Shown piece after piece: positions 2,306 through 15,224 of a DNA stretch of 15,224 nt. The position numbers and the translations under genes were made by a program. Source of the stretch: Bacillota bacterium (lineage in GTDB: Bacteria; Bacillota; Clostridia; Lachnospirales; Lachnospiraceae); contig JAEWRS010000413.1 of assembly GCA_023398855.1 (NCBI GenBank), positions 1 through 15,224 of the forward strand, given 5' to 3'. Numbering within the stretch: the first letter of the stretch is position 1; every line of letters starts with the position of its first letter. Below the pieces are notes generated by a model that was not told where the DNA came from, searched no databases, and was given only the letters and a program-made list of their open reading frames with translations.

Positions 2306-4783
2306 ATGAGTGGATTAATTAAAAAAATTGGAATATTATCTGCGGTCTTTATTGCGGCAATCGCAGTTTATTTTGTGTTGAGCCAAAAGAATACGGAAAA
2401 AAGTGATGTTATGGTATATACAGCCATGGATGAAGCCTCTCTGCCGGTAGTATATTCTGATATGTACGGAAGAAAAATGAACCTGCTTCACGGATATACG
2501 CAGGACATGAAGCAGGTTGTTTCCAGGGAAGCATTAACAGTTCTGCCTCCTGACAGGGCCATGAATATACAGATATCCGACTACAAGGGCAGTATCCAGG
2601 GGATGGAATATGAGGTCCGCAGCATGGATCTGAACCGCCTGGTAGAACGGACCGTGCTGGATAAGTGGGACCAGGCGGAAGGAAGCATCACAGCAACGCT
2701 TCCTATTCAGAATCTTCTGACAAAAGATAAGGAATATCTTCTCATCTTGTCGTTTGATACCTCAGGGAACGGAAAGCTCTTTTATTATACCCGCATCATG
2801 TGGACGGACAGCACCAAGGCAAAGGACATGATAGATTTTGCAGTGGATTTCACTACTAAAACCTTTGACTATGACCAGGCAAGGCATCTGACAACCTATC
2901 TGGAAACCAGTGAGAGTGAGGACAACAGCTCCCTTGGACATGTGACCATCCGGTCCAGCTTTTCCCAGCTTACCTGGGGAGGACTTACTGTGAAGCCGGA
3001 AGGGGACATCAGAGTAACTTTAAAGGATTTAGACGGAATCATGTGCAGTGTCCGGTTGGATTATGAAATATCCAGGGAGGGAGAAGGCGGCATTCAGGAG
3101 CTGTACGAAGTGGAGGACAGCTTTACCATGAAGTGGGACAGCAGGCGTATCTACCTCATGGACTTTGAACGGAATACCAATCAGATATTTTCCGGACAAA
3201 AAGGGCTGTTTTCAGGAAAACGGATCATGCTTGGTATTTCCAACCCAGAAGAGATACGTACTGCCAAAAGCCCGTCAGGGGATTGGCTGGCTTATGAAGT
3301 AAACCGGGATCTCTGGATGTATGACCAGAGTAAAGAACACGCAGTTAAGGTCTTCTCCTTCCGGAGCGGAGAAGACGACGGGACACGCAGCAGCTATAAC
3401 CAGCATGACATTAAAATCCTGTCGGTCAGCGATAACGGGGATGTGAATTTCCTGGTTTATGGCTATATGAACAGAGGAATCCATGAAGGTGGATTAGGGA
3501 TTGCCATGTATCAGTACAACAGCCTGGACAACGCTACAACAGAACGTTTTTTCACTCCCGTGACCTTGTCTTTTGATATGCTTAAGGAAGATTTAGACCA
3601 GCTGGCTCATGTTGGAGCAAATGGAATGCTTTATTTAATGGCAGACCGGGCGGTATACGGTATCGATTTAAACAGCAACGAGTATATGGTTCTGGCGGAC
3701 TCACTTTCTGAGGGCGGATACGCGGTCAGCAGTACTGACCGCCGCTTTGCATGGCTGGAAGGCAGTGACCTTTACGGAGCCGGAGTCATTCATCTTATGG
3801 ATCTTGATACAGGAGTGAAGAGAGAAATAACCGGTGGTGAGGATGACATTTACAGGCCTCTTGGGTTTGTGGGAGATGATTTCATTTATGGGATTGCCAA
3901 AAAAGGCGATGTGTGGGTGCAAAACGGAAGAATAAAAGATGCTCCTATGTATCGGATTGAAATTATGGACCAAAGCGGTAAAATTGTTAAAGAGTATGAA
4001 AATGAGAAAACCTATATTTCTGATGTATCCGTGGAGGGCAGCCGGATTCATTTAACACAGGTGGCAAAATCAGGTGATCAGTCCTACGTGGCCTCCAGGC
4101 AGGATACCATAGTTTGCAATCAGGAGCTTACAAACGGAGAAATGGAGGGAGTCGGCTGGTATGCCTCTGAGGACAGGAGAAAGCTCTACTTTGTTCAACT
4201 GGATAAAGATATGGAAAGCAGGGAGGTAAAGGTTACGGTTCCTAAAAAGGTGGCTTATGAAACTACTGAGGTTGTGGAATTAAAGAGCAATGGAAGGTTC
4301 CAGGAAAACCTGTTTTACGCTTACGGAGGAGGAGGTTATCTGGGAAGCAGGCGCAGCTTTGCAGATGCGCTGGCTCTTGCCTATGACAAAATGGGTGTTG
4401 TGACCGATAAGAATCAGGAAATCATATGGAACCGTGTAAACCGTGCCCCATCCCGGAATATGAAAGAACCATTAAAAACAGGAGCAGCCTTTGTAAGAAA
4501 TCTGGAAGGCTTTAAGTCAGACAGCTTTTATGGCGAGGGGGTTCTTATACTGGATGCAAGGGGCAGTAATTTGAGCCAGGTATTATATTTTATCGGTCAT
4601 GGATGTCCAGTGGCAGCCTATAACCTTCAAGGCGGTTATGTGCTTCTTTCCGGCTATGATTCCTATAATGTAACGGTATATAACCCGGTATCCGGAGAAA
4701 GCCAGAAGATGGGCTTAAATGATGCCTCTGTATACTTTGCGGGCCAGGGTAATGACTTTGTCTGCGGAGTGCTTACGGAATAA
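2306..4783 (+). CDS. Membrane-anchored propeller-like extracytoplasmic protein of unknown function
   Basis: An 825-residue protein that I cannot assign to a named family. It begins with a short basic segment and one hydrophobic helix (about residues 8-26) without a clear cleavage site, so it is probably an N-terminally anchored protein with a large extracellular part. Residues about 30-300 are rich in beta strands; about 310-650 contain repeated short strand-turn units (for example AKSPSGDWLAYE, STDRRFAWLEGSDLYG, ASEDRRKLYFVQL) typical of WD40/TolB-like beta-propellers. The last 150 residues (about 673-825), with HGCPVAAY (765-772) and GGYVLLSGYD (776-785) followed by VTVYNPVSG, resemble the C-terminal half of papain-like C39 peptidase domains, but the usual His before YVLL is Gly and no N-terminal Cys motif is visible. 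Start ATG 2306 has AAAGGAAG (2292-2299) 6 bases upstream. It stands alone between its own promoter and the murA promoter. Confidence 0.75.
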   Translation: MSGLIKKIGILSAVFIAAIAVYFVLSQKNTEKSDVMVYTAMDEASLPVVYSDMYGRKMNLLHGYTQDMKQVVSREALTVLPPDRAMNIQISDYKGSIQGMEYEVRSMDLNRLVERTVLDKWDQAEGSITATLPIQNLLTKDKEYLLILSFDTSGNGKLFYYTRIMWTDSTKAKDMIDFAVDFTTKTFDYDQARHLTTYLETSESEDNSSLGHVTIRSSFSQLTWGGLTVKPEGDIRVTLKDLDGIMCSVRLDYEISREGEGGIQELYEVEDSFTMKWDSRRIYLMDFERNTNQIFSGQKGLFSGKRIMLGISNPEEIRTAKSPSGDWLAYEVNRDLWMYDQSKEHAVKVFSFRSGEDDGTRSSYNQHDIKILSVSDNGDVNFLVYGYMNRGIHEGGLGIAMYQYNSLDNATTERFFTPVTLSFDMLKEDLDQLAHVGANGMLYLMADRAVYGIDLNSNEYMVLADSLSEGGYAVSSTDRRFAWLEGSDLYGAGVIHLMDLDTGVKREITGGEDDIYRPLGFVGDDFIYGIAKKGDVWVQNGRIKDAPMYRIEIMDQSGKIVKEYENEKTYISDVSVEGSRIHLTQVAKSGDQSYVASRQDTIVCNQELTNGEMEGVGWYASEDRRKLYFVQLDKDMESREVKVTVPKKVAYETTEVVELKSNGRFQENLFYAYGGGGYLGSRRSFADALALAYDKMGVVTDKNQEIIWNRVNRAPSRNMKEPLKTGAAFVRNLEGFKSDSFYGEGVLILDARGSNLSQVLYFIGHGCPVAAYNLQGGYVLLSGYDSYNVTVYNPVSGESQKMGLNDASVYFAGQGNDFVCGVLTE

Positions 4784-4891: not shown

Positions 4892-6184
4892 ATGGAGCAG
4901 TATATTATGAAAGGCGGAAATCCCCTGGTTGGTGAAGTAACAATCGGCGGGGCAAAGAATGCCGCTTTGGGAATTCTGGCAGCAGCGATCATGACAGATG
5001 AAGACGTTTTGATCGATAATCTGCCTGATGTCAGAGATATTAACGTGTTGCTTGAAGCGATAGAGGAAATTGGAGCAAAGGTAGAGCGGATTGACAGGCA
5101 TACGGTCCGAATCAATGGAAAGACCATCAGGGAGGTTTCGGTTGATGATGATTACATCCGTAAAATCAGGGCTTCATACTACTTTATCGGTGCCATGCTG
5201 GGTAAGTATAAAAGCGCTCAGGTACCTCTTCCGGGAGGCTGCAACATTGGAAGCAGGCCCATTGACCAGCATTTAAAGGGGTTCCGTGCTCTTGGAGCCG
5301 ATGTGAGGATCGAGAGGGGAGCTGTGATTGTCCATGCGATCGATCTGGTGGCAAGCCATATCTATCTGGACGTTGTCAGTGTTGGGGCTACCATTAATGT
5401 TATGATGGCTGCAACCCTTGCAGAGGGTCAGACAATTCTGGAAAATGTGGCTAAAGAACCTCATGTGGTTGATGTGGCAAACTTTTTAAACAGCATGGGC
5501 GCCAACATCAAGGGAGCCGGCACGGATACCATCCGCATTCGTGGAGTGAGAAAGCTTCATGGAACGGAGTATTCCATCATACCGGACCAGATTGAAGCAG
5601 GAACTTTTATGTGCGCTGCAGCTATAACCAGAGGCGACGTAATGGTGAAGAATGTTATACCAAAGCATTTGGAAGCGATTTCAGCAAAGCTTCTGGAAAT
5701 GGGAAACGAAGTAGTGGAATTTGATGATGCGGTCCGTGTAGTAGGGAAAACCAATCAAAGGCATACGGATATCAAGACTCTTCCCTATCCGGGATTTCCA
5801 ACTGACATGCAGCCTCAGATGACTGTGACTCTTGCTCTTGCAAAAGGCGCCAGCGTGGTAACAGAGAGTATCTTTGAGAACCGTTTCCGTTATGTAGATG
5901 AATTATCCCGTATGGGGGCCAATATAAAAGTAGAAGGAAATGTGGCTGTTATTGACGGCGTAGGCAGCTATACCGGGGCGTTTGTCAACGCTCCTGATCT
6001 CCGCGCAGGTGCAGCATTAGTGATTGCGGGACTGGCAGCGGATGGTTATACGGTTGTAGATGAGATCGGATATATCCAGCGTGGCTATGAATGCTTTGAA
6101 GAAAAGCTTCAGGGCCTTGGTGCTGTAATTGAAAAAGTGGACTCTGAAAATGAAGCAAAGAAATTTAAATTAAAGGTAGGCTAG
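4892..6184 (+). CDS. murA: UDP-N-acetylglucosamine 1-carboxyvinyltransferase
   Basis: MurA transfers enolpyruvate from phosphoenolpyruvate to UDP-GlcNAc, the first committed step of peptidoglycan synthesis, in the cytoplasm. The 430-residue length is typical. Catalytic and binding residues are in place: K22-N23 in GGAKNAA, the catalytic Cys C117 in PLPGGCNIGSRP (the fosfomycin-reactive position), D305 in GFPTDMQPQM, and R397 in IQRGYE. Because C117 is Cys and not Asp, the intrinsically fosfomycin-resistant variant is not indicated. Start ATG 4892 follows AGAGGTG (4881-4887). Many Firmicutes carry two murA paralogues; which one this is cannot be decided here. Its substrate UDP-GlcNAc is also the likely product of the amino-sugar activation genes downstream, although murA has its own promoter and terminator. 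Confidence 0.97.
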   Translation: MEQYIMKGGNPLVGEVTIGGAKNAALGILAAAIMTDEDVLIDNLPDVRDINVLLEAIEEIGAKVERIDRHTVRINGKTIREVSVDDDYIRKIRASYYFIGAMLGKYKSAQVPLPGGCNIGSRPIDQHLKGFRALGADVRIERGAVIVHAIDLVASHIYLDVVSVGATINVMMAATLAEGQTILENVAKEPHVVDVANFLNSMGANIKGAGTDTIRIRGVRKLHGTEYSIIPDQIEAGTFMCAAAITRGDVMVKNVIPKHLEAISAKLLEMGNEVVEFDDAVRVVGKTNQRHTDIKTLPYPGFPTDMQPQMTVTLALAKGASVVTESIFENRFRYVDELSRMGANIKVEGNVAVIDGVGSYTGAFVNAPDLRAGAALVIAGLAADGYTVVDEIGYIQRGYECFEEKLQGLGAVIEKVDSENEAKKFKLKVG

Positions 6185-6241: not shown

Positions 6242-7141
6242 CTATGTTCCTTTTTCTGAAAGAGAACGGATGGAAGTCGCATATTCCGATGGCGTCATCC
6301 CGGTCAGCTTTTTAAACTGTCTGGAAAAATAATGGACCGAGCTGTAACCCAGACGGTCCGCAATTTCGGTAAAATTCAGCTGATTATTGCGGATGAGCTG
6401 TTTTGCTACATTAATCTTCATTCCGGTGAAGTAATCAATGACTCCGCAGCCATAAGTGTTGTGAAAGATTTTCTGAAGCTGTGACCGGCCGGTCAAATTA
6501 TCCCGGCAGATGGTTTCAATGGTAAGGTGTTCTCCGATATGCTCTTCCATATACCGGACAATGCGGTTATGGGCATCTCCGTGCATAGGGCTTTCCATGA
6601 TCCGTCCGGAAGAAATCAGCTCAGGCTTTAAAAAGTATCTGCGGTAAAGATGGATAATCAGCTCCTCTAAATAATTCCCAATCAGCTGCTCTGCCCCAAA
6701 GGATAAAGGAGGCTGCCTCCTGGTCAATTCTTCCTGGTAAGGATCGTCGAGCCGTCCGGTAAATGCGTTTCGCGCCTCAATGATGATCTGCGCCAGCAAG
6801 GCCATTTCCGTCTCCTGTACGGATAAAACCACTCCTTCAAAGGCCTTCATATAAGTAGAGTTGCACTCAAAGCTGACCACTACCAGATTAGGGGCAACGG
6901 TTCCGTTTGTCAGTATGTTGTGGAATTCTCCGGGCTTATGGAAGATAATATTTCCTCGTTTTAAAGGCATCCGCTTGTCACCGGCGATAACGTCGATGAC
7001 CCCTTTGTCAACGCAGACAAACTCCCAGAAATCATGGCTTTCACCCGGAAAAGAAAAATTGCTCATGTACTCAAAGTAGTGGATGGTTATAATTTTTTTT
7101 ATAACAGCAGAGGAGCGTAAAACCGTGCTTTTGTACGCCAT
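6242..7141 (-). CDS. AraC-family transcriptional regulator (copy 1)
   Basis: A 299-residue regulator with an N-terminal cupin-like ligand-binding domain (about residues 15-110, with GESHDFWE at 33-40 and FHKPGEFH at 67-74) and a C-terminal AraC DNA-binding domain (about 194-299) with two helix-turn-helix units, the second ending in the signature HYFSRQFKKLTGMTPSEY. It is expected to sense a small molecule, probably a sugar, and activate the divergent nucleotidyltransferase-kinase-epimerase cluster. The start at 7141 is preferred to the longer reading frame opening at 7204 because AAGGAG (7148-7153, minus strand) is correctly spaced and because the protein then aligns from its N-terminus with the second AraC protein at 10626-11534 (shared HYFEYMS.FSF.GESH.FWE). 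Confidence 0.9.
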   Translation of the reverse strand: MAYKSTVLRSSAVIKKIITIHYFEYMSNFSFPGESHDFWEFVCVDKGVIDVIAGDKRMPLKRGNIIFHKPGEFHNILTNGTVAPNLVVVSFECNSTYMKAFEGVVLSVQETEMALLAQIIIEARNAFTGRLDDPYQEELTRRQPPLSFGAEQLIGNYLEELIIHLYRRYFLKPELISSGRIMESPMHGDAHNRIVRYMEEHIGEHLTIETICRDNLTGRSQLQKIFHNTYGCGVIDYFTGMKINVAKQLIRNNQLNFTEIADRLGYSSVHYFSRQFKKLTGMTPSEYATSIRSLSEKGT

Positions 7142-7163
7142 GGAAATCTCCTTCCAGTTGACA

Positions 7164-7319: not shown

Positions 7320-8249
7320 ATGAACAAGAAGCCGGTTCTGGTAATTATGGCAGCAGGCATGGGAAGCCGATACGGGGGTTTAAAACAGATTGATCCTGTG
7401 GATGCCCATGGAAACAAGATCATTGATTTTTCAATCTATGACGCAATTTATGCTGGATTTAAAAAGGTTGTCTTTATTATTAAAAAGGACATTGAAAAGG
7501 AATTTAAAGAAAATATCGGAGACCGCATGGCGGCTCATGTTCAGGTGGAATACGTATATCAGGAGCTTGACAAGCTTCCAAAAGGATACCATGTGCCGGA
7601 GGGAAGAGTAAAGCCCTGGGGAACAGGACATGCCATCTTATGCTGCAAGGACGTAATAGACGGACCCTTTGCAGTCATTAATGCAGATGATTATTACGGC
7701 AGAAGTGCCTTTGTATCTATTTATGACCAGCTTAACAAAGTATCTGACGGAGAGAAGTATCAGTATACTATGGTGGGCTACCAGCTTTACAAGACCCTGA
7801 CGGAAAACGGCCATGTGGCAAGAGGTGTGTGCAGCACCGATGAAGGGGGAAAGCTTGTTGATATCAATGAGCGTACCAGAATCGAAAAACATGGGGATAA
7901 GGCAGAATTTACCGAGGATGATGGGAAGACCTGGACCGGGCTTTCAGAGGAAACCATTGTTTCCATGAATATGTGGGGTTTTACAAATAGTATATTAAAG
8001 GAATTGGAACAACGGTTTGCTGCATTTTTAGATAGAGAGCTTCCCCAAAATCCAGGGAAGTGTGAATACTTCCTTCCCTTTGTGGTTGATGAACTGTTAA
8101 AGGAAAACAAAGCAGAGGTTTCCGTATTAAGGAGTGTTGACAGGTGGTATGGTGTCACATATAAGGAAGATAAAGAAACCGTTGTCAATGCCATCAAAGG
8201 ACTGAAGGAAGCTGGTCTGTATCCGGAAAAGCTATGGGAGGAAAAGTAA
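7320..8249 (+). CDS. Sugar-nucleotide pyrophosphorylase-type nucleotidyltransferase (copy 2), cluster-linked
   Basis: A 309-residue paralogue of the protein encoded at 321-1250, with the same landmarks: VIMAAGMGSRYGG (8-20) followed by K22, PWGTGHAILCCK at 99-110, the metal-binding NADDYYG at 121-127, MNMWG at 216-220 and DRWYGVTYKEDK near the C-terminus. Over residues 99-127 the two copies share 22 of 29 positions; the stretch 185-212 differs most and may hold substrate-specific residues. Start ATG 7320 has a textbook AAGGAGGT (7305-7312). It is the first gene of the cluster with the kinase, whose start codon overlaps its stop, so the predicted role is uridylylation of the HexNAc 1-phosphate the kinase makes (UTP + sugar-1-P to UDP-sugar + PPi). 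The UTP and sugar preferences are inferred from context. Confidence 0.87.
   Translation: MNKKPVLVIMAAGMGSRYGGLKQIDPVDAHGNKIIDFSIYDAIYAGFKKVVFIIKKDIEKEFKENIGDRMAAHVQVEYVYQELDKLPKGYHVPEGRVKPWGTGHAILCCKDVIDGPFAVINADDYYGRSAFVSIYDQLNKVSDGEKYQYTMVGYQLYKTLTENGHVARGVCSTDEGGKLVDINERTRIEKHGDKAEFTEDDGKTWTGLSEETIVSMNMWGFTNSILKELEQRFAAFLDRELPQNPGKCEYFLPFVVDELLKENKAEVSVLRSVDRWYGVTYKEDKETVVNAIKGLKEAGLYPEKLWEEK
8236..8241 (+). promoter_or_regulatory. Ribosome binding site that fixes the kinase start
   Basis: GGGAGG lies inside the end of the nucleotidyltransferase gene, 7 bases before the ATG at 8249. It rules out the in-frame ATG at 8234, which precedes it. The TAATG overlap implies translational coupling. 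Confidence 0.8.
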
Positions 8250-9361
8250 TGGGAGAGGCACAGTGCGGTAAGCTGAAAGAGGCCATTGGGCTTCTGGCCT
8301 TTGAGGGAGAACCAATCTCGTGGAACCGCTATGGAAGCGGCCATATTAATGATACCTTTCGCCTGATCTGTAAAACAGGAGAAAGAGAAATACACTACAT
8401 CATCCAGAGGATCAATCATGAGGTCTTTAAGGATCCGGTTTCTCTCATGAAAAACATTGCTGGTGTCACTTCCTTTCTGCGGGAACGGATCCAGGCTCAG
8501 GGCGGAGATCCAACCAGGGAAACACTTAATATTATAAAGGCAAGAGATGGAAAGGATTACTGTCAGGACAGCGACGGGAATTACTGGAGAGGTTATCTTT
8601 TTATAGAAGGGGCCACCACCTATGATAAGGTGAGGGATCCTGAGGATTTTTACCAGAGCGGCAAGGCATTTGGAAGGTTTAAACGCCAGCTGGCCCAGTA
8701 TCCGGCTGATGAACTGTCGGAAACTATCCCTGATTTTCATAATACTCCGGTTCGTATGGAAGCATTTAAGGCAGCTGTCAAGGCCGATGTATGCGGCCGT
8801 GCCCATCTGGTGGAAGAGGAAATAAAATTCGTTCTTGACCGGGAAAAGGAAGCCTCTATTGCCATGGATATGTTAAAGGCCGGCAAACTCCCTCTCTGCG
8901 TTACTCACAACGATACCAAGCTTAACAATATTATGATTGATGATATAACAGGGGAAGCCCTTTGCATCATTGACTTAGATACCATCATGCCTGGCTTGTC
9001 GATCTTTGACTTCGGGGATTCCATTCGTTTCGGAGCCAATACAGCAGAGGAGGATGAGCCCGATGTAAGCAAAGTATCCTTATCCCTGCCCCTGTTTGAA
9101 ATCTATACAAAAGGATATTTAGAGGGGTGTAAGGGAAGCCTGATACCAGAGGAAAAGCAGATGCTTCCCATGGGCGCAAAGCTGATGACCTTTGAGTGCG
9201 GCATACGTTTTCTGACAGACTACCTTCAGGGAGACACCTATTTTCATACCAGCAGAGAAAACCACAACCTGGATCGGGCCAGGACCCAGTTTGCACTTGT
9301 GGCTGACATGGAACGAAAGTGGAAAGAAATGGAAGATATTGTCCGCGGGAGTGAACAATAA
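8249..9361 (+). CDS. nahK: N-acetylhexosamine 1-kinase (NahK-like phosphotransferase)
   Basis: A 370-residue member of the aminoglycoside phosphotransferase/choline-kinase fold. It matches what I recall of bifidobacterial NahK along its length: YGSGHINDTF (28-37), Brenner motif VTHNDTKLNN (218-227) with catalytic D222, the metal-binding IIDLDTIMPG (240-249), FDFGDSIRFGA (253-263), ECGIRFLTDYL (316-326) and HNLDRARTQ (339-347). NahK phosphorylates GlcNAc and GalNAc at the anomeric position with ATP, in the lacto-N-biose/galacto-N-biose pathway. The start at 8249 overlaps the preceding TAA by one base and has its own GGGAGG; the longer reading from 8234 is less likely. The gene order nucleotidyltransferase-kinase-galE supports amino-sugar activation. 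Other sugars cannot be excluded without assay. Confidence 0.85.
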   Translation: MGEAQCGKLKEAIGLLAFEGEPISWNRYGSGHINDTFRLICKTGEREIHYIIQRINHEVFKDPVSLMKNIAGVTSFLRERIQAQGGDPTRETLNIIKARDGKDYCQDSDGNYWRGYLFIEGATTYDKVRDPEDFYQSGKAFGRFKRQLAQYPADELSETIPDFHNTPVRMEAFKAAVKADVCGRAHLVEEEIKFVLDREKEASIAMDMLKAGKLPLCVTHNDTKLNNIMIDDITGEALCIIDLDTIMPGLSIFDFGDSIRFGANTAEEDEPDVSKVSLSLPLFEIYTKGYLEGCKGSLIPEEKQMLPMGAKLMTFECGIRFLTDYLQGDTYFHTSRENHNLDRARTQFALVADMERKWKEMEDIVRGSEQ

Positions 9362-9487
9362 GTGTTTTACTTTTATATTTGTCAAATGGGAGTGTCTGCA
9401 TTCCCGCTTCGTTAAATATCAACGGGATATACTTATATATCTGTTTGATTGATAGGCATAAACTATAAACAGGAAAGAGGAGAGAAC
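9362..9487 (+). other. Intergenic region between kinase and galE
   Basis: A 126-base AT-rich gap without a convincing terminator. Weak promoter-like words are present (TATACT 9428-9433; TTGATT 9445-9450 with TATAAA 9464-9469 at only 13 bases spacing). Read-through from the upstream genes with possible extra galE expression is the simplest reading. Confidence 0.35.
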
Positions 9488-10504
9488 ATGAGAATATTGG
9501 TAACCGGAGGCGCCGGATATATCGGCAGCCATACATGTATCGAACTTTTGGAACAGGGACATGAGGTTGTTGTAGTGGATAATCTTTGCAATTCCTCCAG
9601 AGTTTCATTGGAACGGGTGGAAGCCATCACTGGGAAAACAGTAATATTCTACGAGGCAGACCTTTTAGACAGGGATGCATTAGAGAAGATATTTGATCAT
9701 GAAGCCATTGATGCTGTTATCCATTTCGCAGGGTTAAAGGCTGTGGGAGAATCAGTTGCAAAACCATTGGAATATTATTACAATAACATTACCGGCACTC
9801 TGATTCTGTGCGATGTCATGAGAGAACATAAGGTGAAGAATATTATATTCAGCTCCTCTGCCACTGTATACGGAGATCCCGCCTTTGTGCCTATTACGGA
9901 AGACTGTCCCAAGGGAGAGATCACCAATCCCTATGGACAGACAAAAAGCATGCTGGAGCAGATACTTATTGACCTTCATACCGCTGATCCGGAGTGGAGC
10001 GTAATCCTTTTGCGCTATTTTAACCCGGTGGGTGCCCATAAAAGCGGCTTAATCGGAGAAGATCCTGCCGGAATCCCCAATAATCTGACACCTTACATCA
10101 CCCAGGTTGCAGTGGGCAAGTTAAAAGAGGTGGGAGTATTTGGCGATGATTATGACACACCTGACGGAACCGGGGTACGTGATTACATTCACGTGGTGGA
10201 TCTGGCCATCGGACATGTAAAGGCTCTTGAAAAGATTGCTTCTTCTGAACCGGAGGTCCGCATTTACAATCTGGGAACAGGTCAGGGCCTCAGTGTACTT
10301 CAGTTGATCCAAGCGTTTTCAAGGGCATGCGGGAAGCCAATCCCGTATACCATCAAGCCGCGCCGCCTGGGTGATATTGCACAATGCTATGCAGATGCCT
10401 CCCTGGCAAAGAAAGAGCTTGGCTGGGAAGCTGAACGTGGAATTGATGAAATGTGCCAGGATTCCTGGAGATGGCAGTCAGGGAATCCGGACGGTTATAG
10501 GTAA
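9488..10504 (+). CDS. galE: UDP-glucose/UDP-N-acetylglucosamine 4-epimerase
   Basis: GalE is an NAD-dependent short-chain dehydrogenase/reductase of the extended type that inverts C4 of UDP-hexoses in the cytoplasm. The 338 residues carry the Rossmann motif GGAGYIG (7-13), the catalytic S124 in SSSATVYG, and Y149/K153 in YGQTK, at the same numbers as in the E. coli enzyme, plus RYFNPVGAH (176-184) and RDYIHVVDLA (231-240). The residue aligned to E. coli Tyr299 is Cys300 (RRLGDIAQCYADAS), as in the human enzyme that also accepts UDP-GlcNAc/UDP-GalNAc; dual specificity is therefore predicted and fits the neighbouring HexNAc kinase. Start ATG 9488 is chosen over a longer frame from 9449 because AGAGGAG (9476-9482) precedes it and the Rossmann motif then sits at its normal distance. 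Confidence 0.95.
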   Translation: MRILVTGGAGYIGSHTCIELLEQGHEVVVVDNLCNSSRVSLERVEAITGKTVIFYEADLLDRDALEKIFDHEAIDAVIHFAGLKAVGESVAKPLEYYYNNITGTLILCDVMREHKVKNIIFSSSATVYGDPAFVPITEDCPKGEITNPYGQTKSMLEQILIDLHTADPEWSVILLRYFNPVGAHKSGLIGEDPAGIPNNLTPYITQVAVGKLKEVGVFGDDYDTPDGTGVRDYIHVVDLAIGHVKALEKIASSEPEVRIYNLGTGQGLSVLQLIQAFSRACGKPIPYTIKPRRLGDIAQCYADASLAKKELGWEAERGIDEMCQDSWRWQSGNPDGYR

Positions 10505-10625: not shown

Positions 10626-11534
10626 CTATAGAGCTGTATCCCGCAGCATGTTTTTCTCTGACATTTTTTTAATAGAAGTAGCATACTCAGAAGGAGTCAT
10701 TCCGGTTAAGTGCTTAAACTGCCTGGAAAAATAGTGGACTGAGGTATATCCCAGGTGATTGGCAATCTGGGTAAAATTAAGCTGCCTGTTTCTAATCAGC
10801 TGCTTGGCAGAATCAATTTTCATGCTGTTAAAATATTCTATGACTCCGGTGTTTCCCTTTTCATAAAAAAGTTTTTTCAGCTGTGATGTGCTGATCAGAT
10901 TATCCCGGCTGATCTGGTCAATTGTCAGCTGGGTACAGATGTTTTTTTCAAAATAGCAGAGAATGGCTTCATAGATGTCCTCTGTGCGGGAGGTATCCTT
11001 ATGTACGGCGGGAGCCCGGCGCAGGGACAAAGAATGGCGGTAAATTTGTATGAGGAACTGTTCCAGATAGATTTTTATCATTTGCTCTGCCGCAAACGGG
11101 CCATGATCCTTTTGGACCAGAACCTCCTGATAGGGATTGTCGAGCCTTCCGTCAAAGTGCAGACGTGCTTCCGCAATAATCCTGGCCAGGAGTTCCTGCT
11201 CTTCCGGGCCTACGTTTAAGATCTGTTCCTTAAACGACGCCATATGAGGAGACTGGCAGTCAAATCCTATAACAACAAGATTGGGTGCTATGACCCCATT
11301 GGCCAGGACCCGGTGAAATTCATTGGGCTGGTGGAAAATGACCTCCCCTTTCTGAAGAGTAAGCCGTTCATGATCGGCTACCACATCTACTTCTCCCTTA
11401 TCCACACAGAGCAGCTCCCAAAAGTTGTGAGATTCTCCTGCAAAAGAAAAATCACTCATATATTCAAAATAATGAATGCTGACGATCCTGTGAATGGTCA
11501 GTTCTTCTCTCAGTTCTGTATACTTGTATTTCAT
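10626..11534 (-). CDS. AraC-family transcriptional regulator (copy 2)
   Basis: A 302-residue regulator with the same plan as the one at 6242-7141: N-terminal cupin-like domain with HYFEYMSDFSFAGESHNFWE at about residues 20-40, and a C-terminal double helix-turn-helix containing AKQLIRN.QLNFT.IA and HYFSRQFKHLTGMTPSEYATSI, nearly identical to the first copy. It is divergent from the solute-binding protein gene and is expected to activate the ABC transporter operon in response to its sugar or a metabolite of it. Start ATG at 11534 is preceded on the minus strand by an unusually G-rich AGGGGGG site. The near identity of the recognition helices suggests that the two regulators may bind the same or overlapping sites. 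Confidence 0.92.
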   Translation of the reverse strand: MKYKYTELREELTIHRIVSIHYFEYMSDFSFAGESHNFWELLCVDKGEVDVVADHERLTLQKGEVIFHQPNEFHRVLANGVIAPNLVVIGFDCQSPHMASFKEQILNVGPEEQELLARIIAEARLHFDGRLDNPYQEVLVQKDHGPFAAEQMIKIYLEQFLIQIYRHSLSLRRAPAVHKDTSRTEDIYEAILCYFEKNICTQLTIDQISRDNLISTSQLKKLFYEKGNTGVIEYFNSMKIDSAKQLIRNRQLNFTQIANHLGYTSVHYFSRQFKHLTGMTPSEYATSIKKMSEKNMLRDTAL

Positions 11535-11762
11535 ACTTCCCCCCTAATCCTATAACAGGATAAAACCTATCAAAAGAATGTGCTATGCAAATAGTACATA
11601 AGTTACCTGTATTTTACCTGCTAATTATGAAAAGATCAAACAAAAAAATCTAATATGTAAAAAATGATAACCTTTTGTACAAAGCATTATGCCCAAAAGT
11701 ATAATAATATGGACTCACGAGAAGATCTGACAATAAATTGGATCTCAGAGGGAGGTAAAATT
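11535..11762. promoter_or_regulatory. Divergent regulatory region between araC copy 2 and ABC transporter
   Basis: A 228-base AT-rich region. It holds the word ATGCAAAT (11585-11592), the core of the direct repeat found before the activation cluster, a degenerate relative ATGAAAAG (11627-11634) exactly 42 bases later, and a separate direct repeat TTACCTG (11603-11609, 11614-11620) at 11-base spacing. A promoter for the transporter may be TTGTAC (11675-11680) with TATAAT (11700-11705), whose 19-base spacer is long and suggests need of an activator. Confidence 0.5.
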
Positions 11763-13073
11763 ATGAAAAGAAGTATTGTGAGTATTATGCTGAGTGCGGC
11801 CATGACAGCCGGTCTTTTGGCAGGATGTACCGGAGGAGCTTCCAATGCCACTACAGCAGCCGAAACCACAGCCACGGCTTCCGCGGAAGGTACAAAGGAA
11901 GCAGCAGGCGGTGGAGATGGGCTTACTTACTGGACGATGTGGGAGGCAACGGAGCCTCAGGGCCAGGCCATCCAGATGGCTATTGACAAATTTACTGCTG
12001 ATACAGGAGTCAAGGTGGACGTTCAGTTTAAAGGACGTACAGGAATCCGGGAAGGCTTGCAGCCTGCCTTGGATGCAGGAACTAACATTGATTTGTTTGA
12101 TGAGGATATAGACCGGGTTAATACTACATGGGGCCAGTATTTAATGGATCTGGAGGAACTGGTAAAAGCCTCTGGCTATGAAGACAATGCCAATGCAGGC
12201 TTAATGTCAGCCTGCAGAGAAGTAGGAAGTGGTACGTTAAAATCCATTCCCTACCAGCCAAATGTATTTGCATTTTTCTATAACCAGTCAATTTTTGAAG
12301 AGGCAGGAATCAAGGAAGTGCCAAAAACCTGGGAAGAGCTTGACGCGGCCTGCCAGAAGATCAAGGAAGCAGGCTATACCCCTATTACCTGTGATGATGC
12401 TTACATCATATCCATGTTTGGGTACCACATGTCCAGACTTTTAGGAGAACCAGGAACAGAAACAGTTGTAAAAGAAGGAAAGTGGGAAGATCCGGCAGTT
12501 CTTAAGACGGCTCAGGCTTATGAGGATTTCGCTAGAAAAGGATATTTCTCAGAGACCATCGCTTCCAACGTATGGCCCGCAGGACAGAACCAGGAACTGG
12601 CCATGGGAACAGCCGCCATGTATTTAAACGGTTCATGGCTTCCCAATGAAGTAAAGGATATGGCAGGAGAAGACTTTAAATGGGGCTGCTTCAGCTATCC
12701 GGCAGTAGACGGAGGAAAGGATGGAGTCAACGCATCTAATTTTGGCGCTCAGGTATTGGCAATTAATAAAAATTCCCAGAATGGAGAAAACGCGTTTAAG
12801 CTGATCCAGTACATTACTCAGGGTGAATTCGATAAAAAGATGTCTGAAATGTCAATGGGCATTCCTGCGGATTCCAGAAACGCAGAATGGCCGAAACAGC
12901 TTGCCAGTGTAAAGCCCGTAATGGAAAGTCTGTCAGTACGTTATCCCTGGGCAGCCGGAGCTGAGGCTAATGCAGACCTGACACCAATTATCAAAGAAAA
13001 CTTTATGAAGCTTTGCGGTGGTTCCGTTACGGCAGCGGAGTTCGTGGATGCTCTTAAAGCAGCAGGCAAATAA
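11763..13073 (+). CDS. Sugar ABC transporter substrate-binding lipoprotein (family 1)
   Basis: A 436-residue extracellular solute-binding protein, the ligand receptor of a CUT1-type carbohydrate importer. It begins with a lipoprotein signal peptide whose lipobox is LLAGC (18-22), so C22 should be lipidated, followed by an Ala/Thr/Gly-rich flexible linker to about residue 50. The mature part starts TYWTMWEATEPQ and contains WEELDAACQKIKEAGYTPI and AMYLNGSWLPNEV, typical of the family. Start ATG 11763 has GGGAGGT (11750-11756) 6 bases upstream; upstream in-frame ATG codons would bury the signal peptide. It is followed by two permease genes. The ligand is not readable from the sequence; N-acetylhexosamines or their disaccharides are suggested only by the nearby kinase cluster and the paralogous regulator. 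Confidence 0.92.
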   Translation: MKRSIVSIMLSAAMTAGLLAGCTGGASNATTAAETTATASAEGTKEAAGGGDGLTYWTMWEATEPQGQAIQMAIDKFTADTGVKVDVQFKGRTGIREGLQPALDAGTNIDLFDEDIDRVNTTWGQYLMDLEELVKASGYEDNANAGLMSACREVGSGTLKSIPYQPNVFAFFYNQSIFEEAGIKEVPKTWEELDAACQKIKEAGYTPITCDDAYIISMFGYHMSRLLGEPGTETVVKEGKWEDPAVLKTAQAYEDFARKGYFSETIASNVWPAGQNQELAMGTAAMYLNGSWLPNEVKDMAGEDFKWGCFSYPAVDGGKDGVNASNFGAQVLAINKNSQNGENAFKLIQYITQGEFDKKMSEMSMGIPADSRNAEWPKQLASVKPVMESLSVRYPWAAGAEANADLTPIIKENFMKLCGGSVTAAEFVDALKAAGK

Positions 13074-13096
13074 TCCGGAATAATAAGAATCTTTAG

Positions 13097-13122
13097 GGTG
13101 ACACCGCCAAGGCGGTGTCACC
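13097..13122 (+). promoter_or_regulatory. Perfect intercistronic hairpin between binding protein and permeases
   Basis: GGTGACACCGCC and GGCGGTGTCACC are fully complementary around AA, giving an 11-12 bp GC-rich stem with a tiny loop and no T-run after it. It therefore looks like an mRNA-stabilising or partial-termination element that raises the binding protein over the permeases, as known for malE-malF type operons. Confidence 0.75.
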
Positions 13123-13140
13123 GTGTAATTAAGGAAAGCC

Positions 13141-13148
13141 GGGGAGGT
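13141..13148 (+). promoter_or_regulatory. Ribosome binding site supporting a TTG start
   Basis: GGGGAGGT stands 7 bases before TTG at 13156. The next ATG in frame (13174) would be 25 bases away, too far, so TTG is the likely start of the first permease. Confidence 0.75.
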
Positions 13149-13155
13149 ATTTAAC

Positions 13156-14061
13156 TTGAAGAAGAATAAGACCATGATTGCCGTATTTTTAACACCGGCA
13201 GTTCTAATGTTTGTCCTTATATTCCTTTATCCTATTCTCAGAACAGTTCTCATGAGTTTTTTTAAAATAGAAGGAATTACGGATTCTATGGCCAAGTGGC
13301 AGTTTACGGGGCTTGCCAATTACAGTAAGCTGGCAGGAACCAGTTTATTCCGCATATCCATGTGGAACCTCTTCCGTATCTGGCTGATCGGCGGACTGGT
13401 CGCCATGTCCCTGGCCCTTTTATTTGCAGTCATTATTACCAGTGGGATACGTTTTAAAAGTTTTTTCAGGGCAATGATCTATCTTCCCAACGTAGTCAGT
13501 GCGGTTGCTCTTGCCACTATGTGGCTGCAGTATGTATACAGCCCTAAGTTTGGTCTCCTTAAAAATGCTTTTGCAGCTGTAGGGCTTAAACATTTATCCA
13601 AAATCCAGTGGCTTGATAATGATCACAAATTCATGGCCCTGCTTGTTGCGTATTGCTTTGGTATGGTTGGGTATCACATGCTGATATTTGCAAGCGGAAT
13701 CGAACGGATCGGAGACGACTACTATGAGGCTGCTACTTTGGATGGGGCAAATAAGGTAAACCAGTTCCGCTATATTACCTTTCCCTTGTTAAAAGGCGTG
13801 TTTAAAACCAATATCACCATGTGGAGCGTCACTTCGGTAGGCTTCTTCGTCTGGTCCCAGTTATTTTCAACGGTTACGGCTGATACCCAGACCATTACCC
13901 CCATGGTTTATATGTACATGATGATCTTTGGAGCCGGCAACAGCATGACAGAGCGGAATGCAGGTCTGGGAGCTGCCATCGGTGTTTTGCTTAGCGTTTG
14001 TGTGGTAGCGGTATTCCTGATATGCAATAAACTGATTAAAGATGATGATCTGGAATTTTAA
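13156..14061 (+). CDS. Sugar ABC transporter permease, MalF-like
   Basis: A 301-residue membrane protein of the binding-protein-dependent (CUT1) permease family. Hydrophobic segments are visible at about 8-31, 73-95, 106-124, 160-179, 217-236 and 270-291. The EAA loop that docks on the ATPase is EAATLDGANKVNQFRYITFP (191-210), with the conserved E-A-A, D-G-A and FP elements intact. It begins with TTG, placed by a strong GGGGAGGT, and starts 82 bases after the binding protein with a hairpin in between; the second permease follows after 12 bases. No ATPase gene is present, as usual for CUT1 systems that share an MsmX-type ATPase encoded elsewhere. Confidence 0.92.
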   Translation: MKKNKTMIAVFLTPAVLMFVLIFLYPILRTVLMSFFKIEGITDSMAKWQFTGLANYSKLAGTSLFRISMWNLFRIWLIGGLVAMSLALLFAVIITSGIRFKSFFRAMIYLPNVVSAVALATMWLQYVYSPKFGLLKNAFAAVGLKHLSKIQWLDNDHKFMALLVAYCFGMVGYHMLIFASGIERIGDDYYEAATLDGANKVNQFRYITFPLLKGVFKTNITMWSVTSVGFFVWSQLFSTVTADTQTITPMVYMYMMIFGAGNSMTERNAGLGAAIGVLLSVCVVAVFLICNKLIKDDDLEF

Positions 14062-14073
14062 GGAGGGAAATCT

Positions 14074-14949
14074 ATGGCTAAAAAGGGTACGCTGACGGAG
14101 CCATTTAACTGGAAGAGAGAGCTTAGGCTTTTTCCTGGATATCTGCTCCTGATTGTTTGGATTTTATTTACTGTTGTACTGCTGGGCTGGGTGGTGGCTG
14201 CCAGCTTTTCTACCACAAAGGCCATATTCTCGGGCCATGTTCTGTCACAGGGAATCCATTTTGAAAATTATGCAAAGGCATGGACCAATTCCAATGTGTC
14301 TGCCATATTTTTTAATTCCCTGATGTATTCTCTTATATCATGCACCTTGCTGGTTTTGATCTGTGCGCCAGCTGCCTACGTTCTTTCCCGCTTTCGCTTT
14401 GCGGGGAATAAGGCCATCCAGACCAGTCTGGTATCTGCCATGGGAGTGCCAGTGGTCATGATCGTTCTTCCGCTGTTCAGCCTGATTGCCAGTATGAATA
14501 TCTTAAACAATTATATGGCCAATAAGGCAGTCCTGATTTTCCTTTACGTGGGAATCAACGTTCCTTACACGACAATTTTTTTACTCACTTTTTTTGCTAA
14601 TATTTCCAGAGCTTATGAGGAAGCAGCAGCCATTGACGGCTGTCCCCCCATGAAGGCGTTCTGGCTGATAATGTTTCCCATGGCCCAGTCCGGGATTATT
14701 ACAGTGACCATTTTTAATTTTATCAATATATGGAACGAGTATTTTATTTCTCTGATTTTTGCCAACTCTGACAGAGTGCGTCCGGTAGCGGTTGGCCTGT
14801 ATTCCATGATCAATTCCATGAAATACACAGGAGACTGGTCAGGCATGTTTGCTTCCGTTATCATCGTATTTCTGCCCACTTTTATCCTCTATATCTTTTT
14901 GTCGGAAAAAATTATTGCCGGTATTACTGGAGGCGGGGTCAAGGGGTAA
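14074..14949 (+). CDS. Sugar ABC transporter permease, MalG-like
   Basis: A 291-residue partner permease. It has a cytosolic N-terminus (MAKKGTLTEPFNWKREL) and about six membrane segments (near 21-44, 83-106, 117-140, 148-168, 200-220 and 257-279). The EAA loop reads EAAAIDGCPPMKAFWLIMFP starting at residue 183, followed by IFNFINIWNEYF, the usual end of MalG-type proteins. Start ATG 14074 has AGGAGGG (14061-14067), which overlaps the stop codon of the preceding permease, so the pair is tightly coupled. It probably forms the heterodimeric pore with the MalF-like protein. The operon ends here; a long hairpin follows. Confidence 0.93.
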   Translation: MAKKGTLTEPFNWKRELRLFPGYLLLIVWILFTVVLLGWVVAASFSTTKAIFSGHVLSQGIHFENYAKAWTNSNVSAIFFNSLMYSLISCTLLVLICAPAAYVLSRFRFAGNKAIQTSLVSAMGVPVVMIVLPLFSLIASMNILNNYMANKAVLIFLYVGINVPYTTIFLLTFFANISRAYEEAAAIDGCPPMKAFWLIMFPMAQSGIITVTIFNFINIWNEYFISLIFANSDRVRPVAVGLYSMINSMKYTGDWSGMFASVIIVFLPTFILYIFLSEKIIAGITGGGVKG

Positions 14950-15045: not shown

Positions 15046-15224
15046 TTATTTGTCCACAACAGGAATTGGTGTTTCGTCTTTTTCGTCTAAGTGATTTAAA
15101 TAATATTTGGTATCCTTTGCTATAATGCCCGACAGAAGAAGGACAGCGATCAGGTTGGGAATGGCCATCAAAGCATTTAAAATGTCAGAAATCGTCCAAA
15201 CCAGATCCAAAGACAGCACAGGCC
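15046..15224 (-). CDS. Alanine/glycine:cation symporter (AGCS family), C-terminal fragment
   Basis: Translating the minus strand gives 58 residues ending at a TAA (15048-15046). The sequence contains VWTISDILNALMAIPNLIAVLLLSGIIAKDTKYY, split here only by the family landmarks W-x-I-x-D-x-L-N and MAIPNLIA..LLSG, which are characteristic of the last membrane helix of AGCS sodium:alanine/glycine symporters, followed by a short charged tail (HLDEKDETPIPVVDK). The rest of the gene lies outside the window to the right. It is convergent with the sugar transporter operon and unrelated in function to it as far as can be seen. Confidence 0.85.
   Translation of the reverse strand, partial: PVLSLDLVWTISDILNALMAIPNLIAVLLLSGIIAKDTKYYLNHLDEKDETPIPVVDK

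Follow-up and report, generated by a model that had tools for sequence, protein, structure and literature searches.

Which enzyme attaches a nucleotide to N-acetylhexosamine 1-phosphates (HexNAc-1-P) when the genes for an N-acetylhexosamine kinase and a UDP-sugar epimerase are accompanied by one for a nucleotidyltransferase (NTase) in the place of GalT? This question is raised by a 15,224-nucleotide stretch of a Lachnospiraceae genome (contig JAEWRS010000413.1, assembly GCA_023398855.1), from now on referred to as the window, which encodes the following three components in a row:

7320–8249, + strand: NTase of clade A, predicted HexNAc-1-P uridylyltransferase (pyrophosphorylase); PF00483, nearest solved structure PDB 3pnn, member of a NahK-linked tree clade with NahK fusions
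8249–9361, + strand: NahK-type N-acetylhexosamine 1-kinase; 326 bits and 50.4% identity to Bifidobacterium longum NahK (4wh1)
9488–10504, + strand: GalE, UDP-sugar 4-epimerase with Cys300 and Asn199 at the broad-range (group 2) pockets; TIGR01179, 461.6 bits

We interpret this cluster as an N-acetylhexosamine salvage and catabolic module in which the NTase is predicted to charge HexNAc-1-P with UTP, and put the probability of this reading at roughly 0.75.

Pairing and fusion of the NTase with NahK

The arrangement described in the initial annotation, with NTase, NahK-like kinase and GalE in series, was recovered as three forward open reading frames (ORFs) with matching domains. The stop codon of the NTase overlaps the kinase start codon by a single A within the TAATG at 8247–8251, and a GGGAGG motif ends 7 nt 5' of the kinase ATG at 8249, which was taken as the start although the ORF list uses an ATG further 5', at 8234. 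The gap between kinase and GalE is 126 bp, and all three genes are likely located on a single transcript. Within the 375-residue kinase frame, residues 21–370 align to B. longum NahK (170 of 337 positions identical), so that the NahK-type assignment holds by homology; the kinase also matches PF01636 (APH, 56.3 bits).

Pairing of NTase and kinase is conserved. Among the matches listed, 80 NahK loci were surveyed, some of them short, so that counts are lower bounds and a gene not found carries little weight. In 42 of these loci the NTase immediately precedes NahK, and 18 of the 42 also contain GalE, while GalT was found in none of the 80. A set of 150 genomes from the family of genome G001, which contains Diplocloster agilis (G005) and hence by inference represents Lachnospiraceae, holds NahK in 56 genomes, any NTase relative in 105 and GH112 in 41. 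Of the 54 genomes whose kinase is clear, 36 carry the NTase immediately 5' of NahK and are referred to as pair genomes. These adjacency counts, again lower bounds, rest on NTase places of at least 340 bits plus four lower ones, on the listed kinase places minus five (those of G102 and G147 as well as three short second fragments) and on 30 GH112 places out of 49. The conservation survey proposed for this gene set thus gave a positive answer, and the whole trio is kept in G059 and G162, the two closest genomes compared.

In 5 of 63 pairs examined, NTase and NahK form a single uninterrupted frame (the 63 pairs, like the GalE counts below, include some genes twice). When one fused protein (locus L003) was used as query, the best 120 of 1636 matches were all 662–699 residues long with 98–100% query coverage, and 119 of these 120 contain both PF00483 and PF01636. 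Given this fusion, kinase and NTase would most simply act in sequence, converting HexNAc to HexNAc-1-P and further to NDP-HexNAc. A GH112–NahK pair without an adjacent NTase was observed in six loci (L015, L024, L038, L039, L041 and L048). Nine proteins tested from seven NahK loci where no NTase adjoins the kinase (L015, L038, L039, L048, L061, L076 and L078) included no alternative uridylyltransferase.

The same two-step logic is known from the APH-fold kinase AmgK and the PF00483 enzyme MurU, and a comparable recycling route would start from peptidoglycan-derived MurNAc (or GlcNAc) and yield UDP-MurNAc or UDP-GlcNAc. We regard this as highly improbable for the present pair, whose kinase is of the full-length NahK type, whose NTase has no match to the MurU model NF045761 (NCBIfam, E 0.001) and which in relatives is surrounded by GH112, GalE and sugar ABC transporter genes.

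Family relationships of the NTase

The NTase scores 36.9 bits against PF00483 (cut-off 21.2) and is only distantly related to GalU, RmlA and archaeal GlmU, remaining below the curated cut-offs for GalU (TIGR01099, 23.8 versus 326.8 bits) and RmlA (TIGR01208, 21.9 versus 320.25 bits). Neither this protein nor a second NTase encoded at 321–1250 of the window matched GlmU TIGR01173 (NCBIfam, E 0.001) or, in a Pfam search, PF01704. The protein does match solved members of the sugar-1-phosphate nucleotidyltransferase fold, the nearest of which, 3pnn, is a Porphyromonas gingivalis protein. Among the matches listed, the closest named NTase is that of Lacrimispora indolis (95%), which makes a Lacrimispora the probable host of the window, and named relatives carry only the label 'nucleotidyltransferase'.

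A tree of 95 NTases revealed separation into two clades. Clade A comprises 74 rows, 51 of them NahK-linked, and includes the NTase at 7320–8249; clade B comprises 21 rows (support 100/99) and includes the second NTase at 321–1250. Ten genes neighbouring clade A NTases without NahK, in nine loci, showed no coherent context.

NTase distribution and UDP-GlcNAc supply

Across the 150 genomes, a strong NTase is present in 100 and PF01704 in 41, with both in only 3 and neither in 12 (Fisher p 1.7e-21). Five weak-NTase genomes (G016, G033, G119, G142 and G144) were removed from this table; including them, it reads 3, 102, 38 and 7. One of the 41 PF01704 proteins was tested (L188) and is, by similarity, of the AGX1/UAP1 type, because it scores 282 bits to UDP-N-acetylhexosamine pyrophosphorylase versus 39 to UDP-sugar and 37 to UDP-glucose pyrophosphorylase.

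Full-length GlmU over cut-off was found in none of the 150 genomes, with at most ten first-look candidates scored per genome, versus 9 of 14 control genomes; scoring all candidates in the 36 pair genomes likewise yielded none over cut-off. The uridyltransferase half of GlmU was matched in 15 of the 150 genomes (257–290 bits), one example (L192) being a 245-residue protein with 217 bits to solved GlmU. This half occurs in 7 of the 12 genomes without NTase and PF01704 (p 1.3e-5). The third exclusion is loose, since the other eight GlmU-half genomes also encode an NTase (7) or PF01704 (1). All three are absent from five genomes (G033, G036, G046, G086 and G142), and in five others (G017, G065, G071, G084 and G160) clade A is the only family member, without PF01704 or a GlmU half.

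Clade B points to the same step. In 20 clade B loci, selected from lower-scoring NTase matches and not at random, a GlmM-type mutase adjoins the NTase in 5 and YbbR in 3 (loci with either neighbour: L144, L148, L155, L156, L157, L145, L150 and L152). Four of the five mutases were tested and exceed the TIGR01455 cut-off with 531–550 bits; the fifth is 74% identical to one of them. In Firmicutes, ybbR and glmM are commonly neighbours. One locus (L157:4587–6533, G074) carries GalE and a clade B NTase in one 648-codon frame directly after the GlmM-type mutase.

The simplest reading of this pattern is that the NTase family makes UDP-GlcNAc. The family looks like a missing UDP-GlcNAc pyrophosphorylase of these bacteria, and its distribution looks like non-orthologous replacement at that step. 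Direct charging of HexNAc-1-P with UTP, as initially proposed, thus gains genomic support from the NahK fusions, the complementarity with PF01704 and the GlmU half, and the glmM-linked sister clade. On balance, though with less confidence than for the cluster itself, we favour a wider view: 3pnn-type NTases would form a class of UDP-GlcNAc pyrophosphorylases apart from GlmU and AGX1, with clade B serving most Lachnospiraceae as the housekeeping source of cell-wall UDP-GlcNAc and clade A recruited beside NahK and fused to it in many genomes. The fusion would then be a natural two-step enzyme from HexNAc to UDP-HexNAc which, together with GalE, would run a pyrophosphate (PPi)/UTP cycle in place of GalT.

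GalT and the choice of substrate

The presence of galT, GH112 and GlmU was judged from relatives' genomes. Among the 150, galT_2 is found in 110 (91 over cut-off) and galT_1 in none; 33 of the 36 pair genomes hold galT_2, 31 of them over cut-off. Further, galT_2 is present in 80 of the 100 genomes with a strong NTase versus 30 of the 50 without. Since NTase presence goes with galT_2 and nearly all pair genomes keep it, the NTase is no GalT replacement genome-wide. The proposal that a pyrophosphorylase takes the place of GalT therefore stands within the cluster, GalT having been found at none of the 80 NahK loci, but not for the genome as a whole. According to excerpts of PMC8106489 and PMC6668579, GalT handles HexNAc-1-P in the bifidobacterial pathway, and it is this role that the NTase appears to take. 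Taken together, the initial observation is confirmed and its main inference probably correct, once the claim about GalT is restricted to the cluster.

These counts also bear on a different assignment. As stated in part of PMC5583593, a PF00483 protein named GalY was predicted in 2017 to replace GalT in 70 gut genomes, clustered with galE in 15. Applied here, the NTase would charge Gal-1-P with UTP and, together with GalE, process the galactose moiety of lacto-N-biose or galacto-N-biose; it does adjoin GalE in several loci without NahK, and Gal-1-P is the product released by GH112 in the account excerpted from PMC8106489. Such a role is hard to reconcile with the retention of galT_2 alongside the NTase, with the finding that 23 of the 36 pair genomes carry a galactokinase-family gene (some below the model cut-off) no more than 5 kb from galT_2, with NahK as the fusion partner and with an AGX1-type complementary enzyme and a GlmM-adjoining sister clade, and we consider it quite unlikely. 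If GalY does belong to the NTase family, these data would favour HexNAc-1-P over Gal-1-P as its main substrate. In our literature search Amuc_0031, the GalY protein, turned up in PMC5583593 only.

GalE itself does not decide between substrates. The window protein matches PF01370 (Epimerase, 202 bits) and exceeds the TIGR01179 cut-off, and its Cys300 and Asn199 occupy the pockets by which B. longum GalE admits N-acetyl sugars, as described in a portion of PMC6668579. The pocket Cys is present in 32 of 32 NahK-linked GalEs, but also in 21 of 21 GalEs that are at least 69% identical and whose fetched stretch contains no NahK. Considered at first as proof of HexNAc use, it was demoted on account of these controls: judged from sequence, the Cys is only permissive for HexNAc and not specific to the cluster.

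Three caveats apply to the reading that the family makes UDP-GlcNAc. The fold comparison of the NTase does not discriminate between substrates, the completeness of the 150 genomes is not stated, and canonical GalU is also rare, with no more than 2 pair genomes out of 36 exceeding its cut-off. This scarcity of GalU, together with the broad-range pocket residues of GalE, would suit a promiscuous UDP-sugar pyrophosphorylase that does not distinguish between Gal-1-P, Glc-1-P, GalNAc-1-P and GlcNAc-1-P and acts for both disaccharide halves; such enzymes exist in plants and Leishmania, to go by partial accounts. We regard this as unlikely, if less so than a dedicated Gal-1-P enzyme, given that the pair genomes keep galT_2 and that other PF00483 proteins of these genomes could make UDP-glucose.

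Regulators, transporter and GH112

The predicted HexNAc-1-P pathway is flanked by the following features:

321–1250, + strand: further NTase of this family, assigned to clade B and a candidate for the housekeeping UDP-GlcNAc pyrophosphorylase; 51% identity to the NTase at 7320–8249, placed by the tree and by glmM/ybbR neighbours elsewhere
6242–7162, - strand: AraC-family regulator, divergent from the NTase; PF12833, PF00165
7163–7319, no strand: intergenic stretch separating the AraC gene from the NTase, presumed by position only to be the control region
10626–11534, - strand: second AraC-family regulator, divergent from the transporter; 53% identical to the first
11763–13073, + strand: extracellular sugar-binding protein (SBP); PF01547, TIGR03851 (NgcE) below cut-off
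13156–14061, + strand: ABC sugar permease 1 (P1); NCBIfam matches below cut-offs, same relatives' loci as SBP
14074–14949, + strand: ABC sugar permease 2 (P2); NCBIfam matches below cut-offs, same relatives' loci as SBP
15046–15222, - strand: C-terminal end of a Na+/alanine symporter, closing the window; PF01235, 42 bits

An AraC-type control region for the cluster had been noted before, and the divergent AraC-family gene lies 157 bp upstream of the NTase; the second AraC gene, the downstream ABC transporter and the second NTase had been passed over. AraC relatives with at least 45% identity to either window regulator occur in 25 of the 80 NahK loci. A promoter and terminator scan gave consensus matches only and was set aside unused. 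Between the second NTase and the first AraC gene lie a Pro/Gly-rich ORF (1325–2050), an 825-residue ORF (2306–4783) and a MurA-like gene (4892–6184, labelled by eye). L103 and L151 contain the same trio, and in the former the MurA-like gene is located directly 3' of GalE.

SBP scores 99.6 bits against the NgcE model (cut-off 399.65), and its relatives adjoin GH112 or NTase–NahK in five loci (L004, L005, L017, L031 and L034). The gene order is NTase–NahK–AraC–GH112–SBP–P1–P2 in L004 and L005, with identities to the window of 74–75% (SBP), 82–85% (P1) and 76–78% (P2), and AraC–SBP–P1–P2–GH112–NTase–NahK–GalE in L034, whose GH112 matches PF09508, PF17385 and PF17386 with 733, 326 and 81 bits. Because relatives place them beside the GH112 phosphorylase, the AraC–SBP–permease genes at 10626–14949 probably belong to the NTase–NahK–GalE system. 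GH112 is present in 26 of the 80 NahK loci and a window-type transporter in 11, 5 of which hold both.

No GH112 is encoded in the window, as stated initially, and a position just past the transporter was ruled out, the next gene being the symporter end on the opposite strand. Around the trio in G059 and G162, the 19.9 kb fetched contained no window-type transporter; GH112 lies away from the trio in both genomes, in G162 beside a related transporter. Overall, 25 of the 36 pair genomes hold GH112 and 11 gave no GH112 match (G001, G029, G112 and G145 among them), so that the pair must also be supplied with free HexNAc or from other sources. This agrees with the earlier suggestion that the route starts from free HexNAc or from a phosphorylase encoded elsewhere. 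In a Clostridium, an excerpt of PMC13056567 reports, a milk sugar induces a GH112 gene together with ngcEFG.

Proposed pathway

From the observed genes, homologies, fusions, gene order and phyletic pattern we infer the substrates, the nucleotide, the use of GalNAc-1-P, the direction and the induction of the system. The ABC importer (11763–14949) would take up HexNAc or a HexNAc-containing sugar, and NahK would use ATP to phosphorylate GlcNAc or GalNAc at O1, yielding GlcNAc-1-P or GalNAc-1-P. The NTase would then convert HexNAc-1-P and UTP to UDP-HexNAc and PPi, and GalE would interconvert UDP-GalNAc and UDP-GlcNAc. UDP-GlcNAc may enter the cell wall or return via the same reversible NTase (UDP-GlcNAc and PPi to GlcNAc-1-P and UTP) to GlcNAc-6-P and glycolysis, which would make UTP catalytic. 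Only GalNAc strictly requires a UDP stage before glycolysis and is thus the likeliest key substrate, for example when derived from galacto-N-biose. Gal-1-P would probably be routed via the separate galT.

This assignment gives a testable substrate to a large family whose named members among the matches listed are labelled 'nucleotidyltransferase' and may explain how related bacteria achieve essential UDP-GlcNAc synthesis without full GlmU. It also suggests that HexNAc from mucin or milk sugars may follow a route unlike the bifidobacterial GalT cycle, gives reason to test the GalY assignment with HexNAc-1-P and indicates that the natural fused enzyme could be useful for UDP-HexNAc synthesis.

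Comparison with known systems

A literature search by titles and the starts of abstracts returned no study treating the NTase together with NahK, which is no proof of absence. NahK-type kinases are known from other locus types: Bacteroides thetaiotaomicron BT4240, a NahK-type GalNAc kinase like that of the window, is required for growth on GalNAc according to part of PMC11992087. Entries for the P. gingivalis protein 3pnn call it 'glycosyltransferase' or 'conserved domain protein' and name no substrate. GalY (Amuc_0031) resembles the window NTase as a PF00483 protein clustered with galE; in the available text of PMC5583593, however, it is assigned to galactose in galT-less genomes, whereas the window family is NahK-linked or fused and coexists with galT_2. 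GlmU and AGX1/UAP1 share with the NTase the predicted reaction of HexNAc-1-P with UTP and show a complementary distribution, but belong to different sequence families.

The closest parallel is the bifidobacterial galacto-N-biose/lacto-N-biose pathway, consisting of GLNBP, NahK, GalT, GalE and an ABC transporter. NahK, GalE and a sugar ABC transporter are common to both, and relatives of the window carry GH112 beside the NTase–NahK pair. The window differs in its two AraC regulators, in the absence of GH112 and in the PF00483 NTase located where GalT would be, so that the task which the bifidobacterial GalT performs by uridylyl exchange would, for HexNAc-1-P, fall to a pyrophosphorylase using PPi.

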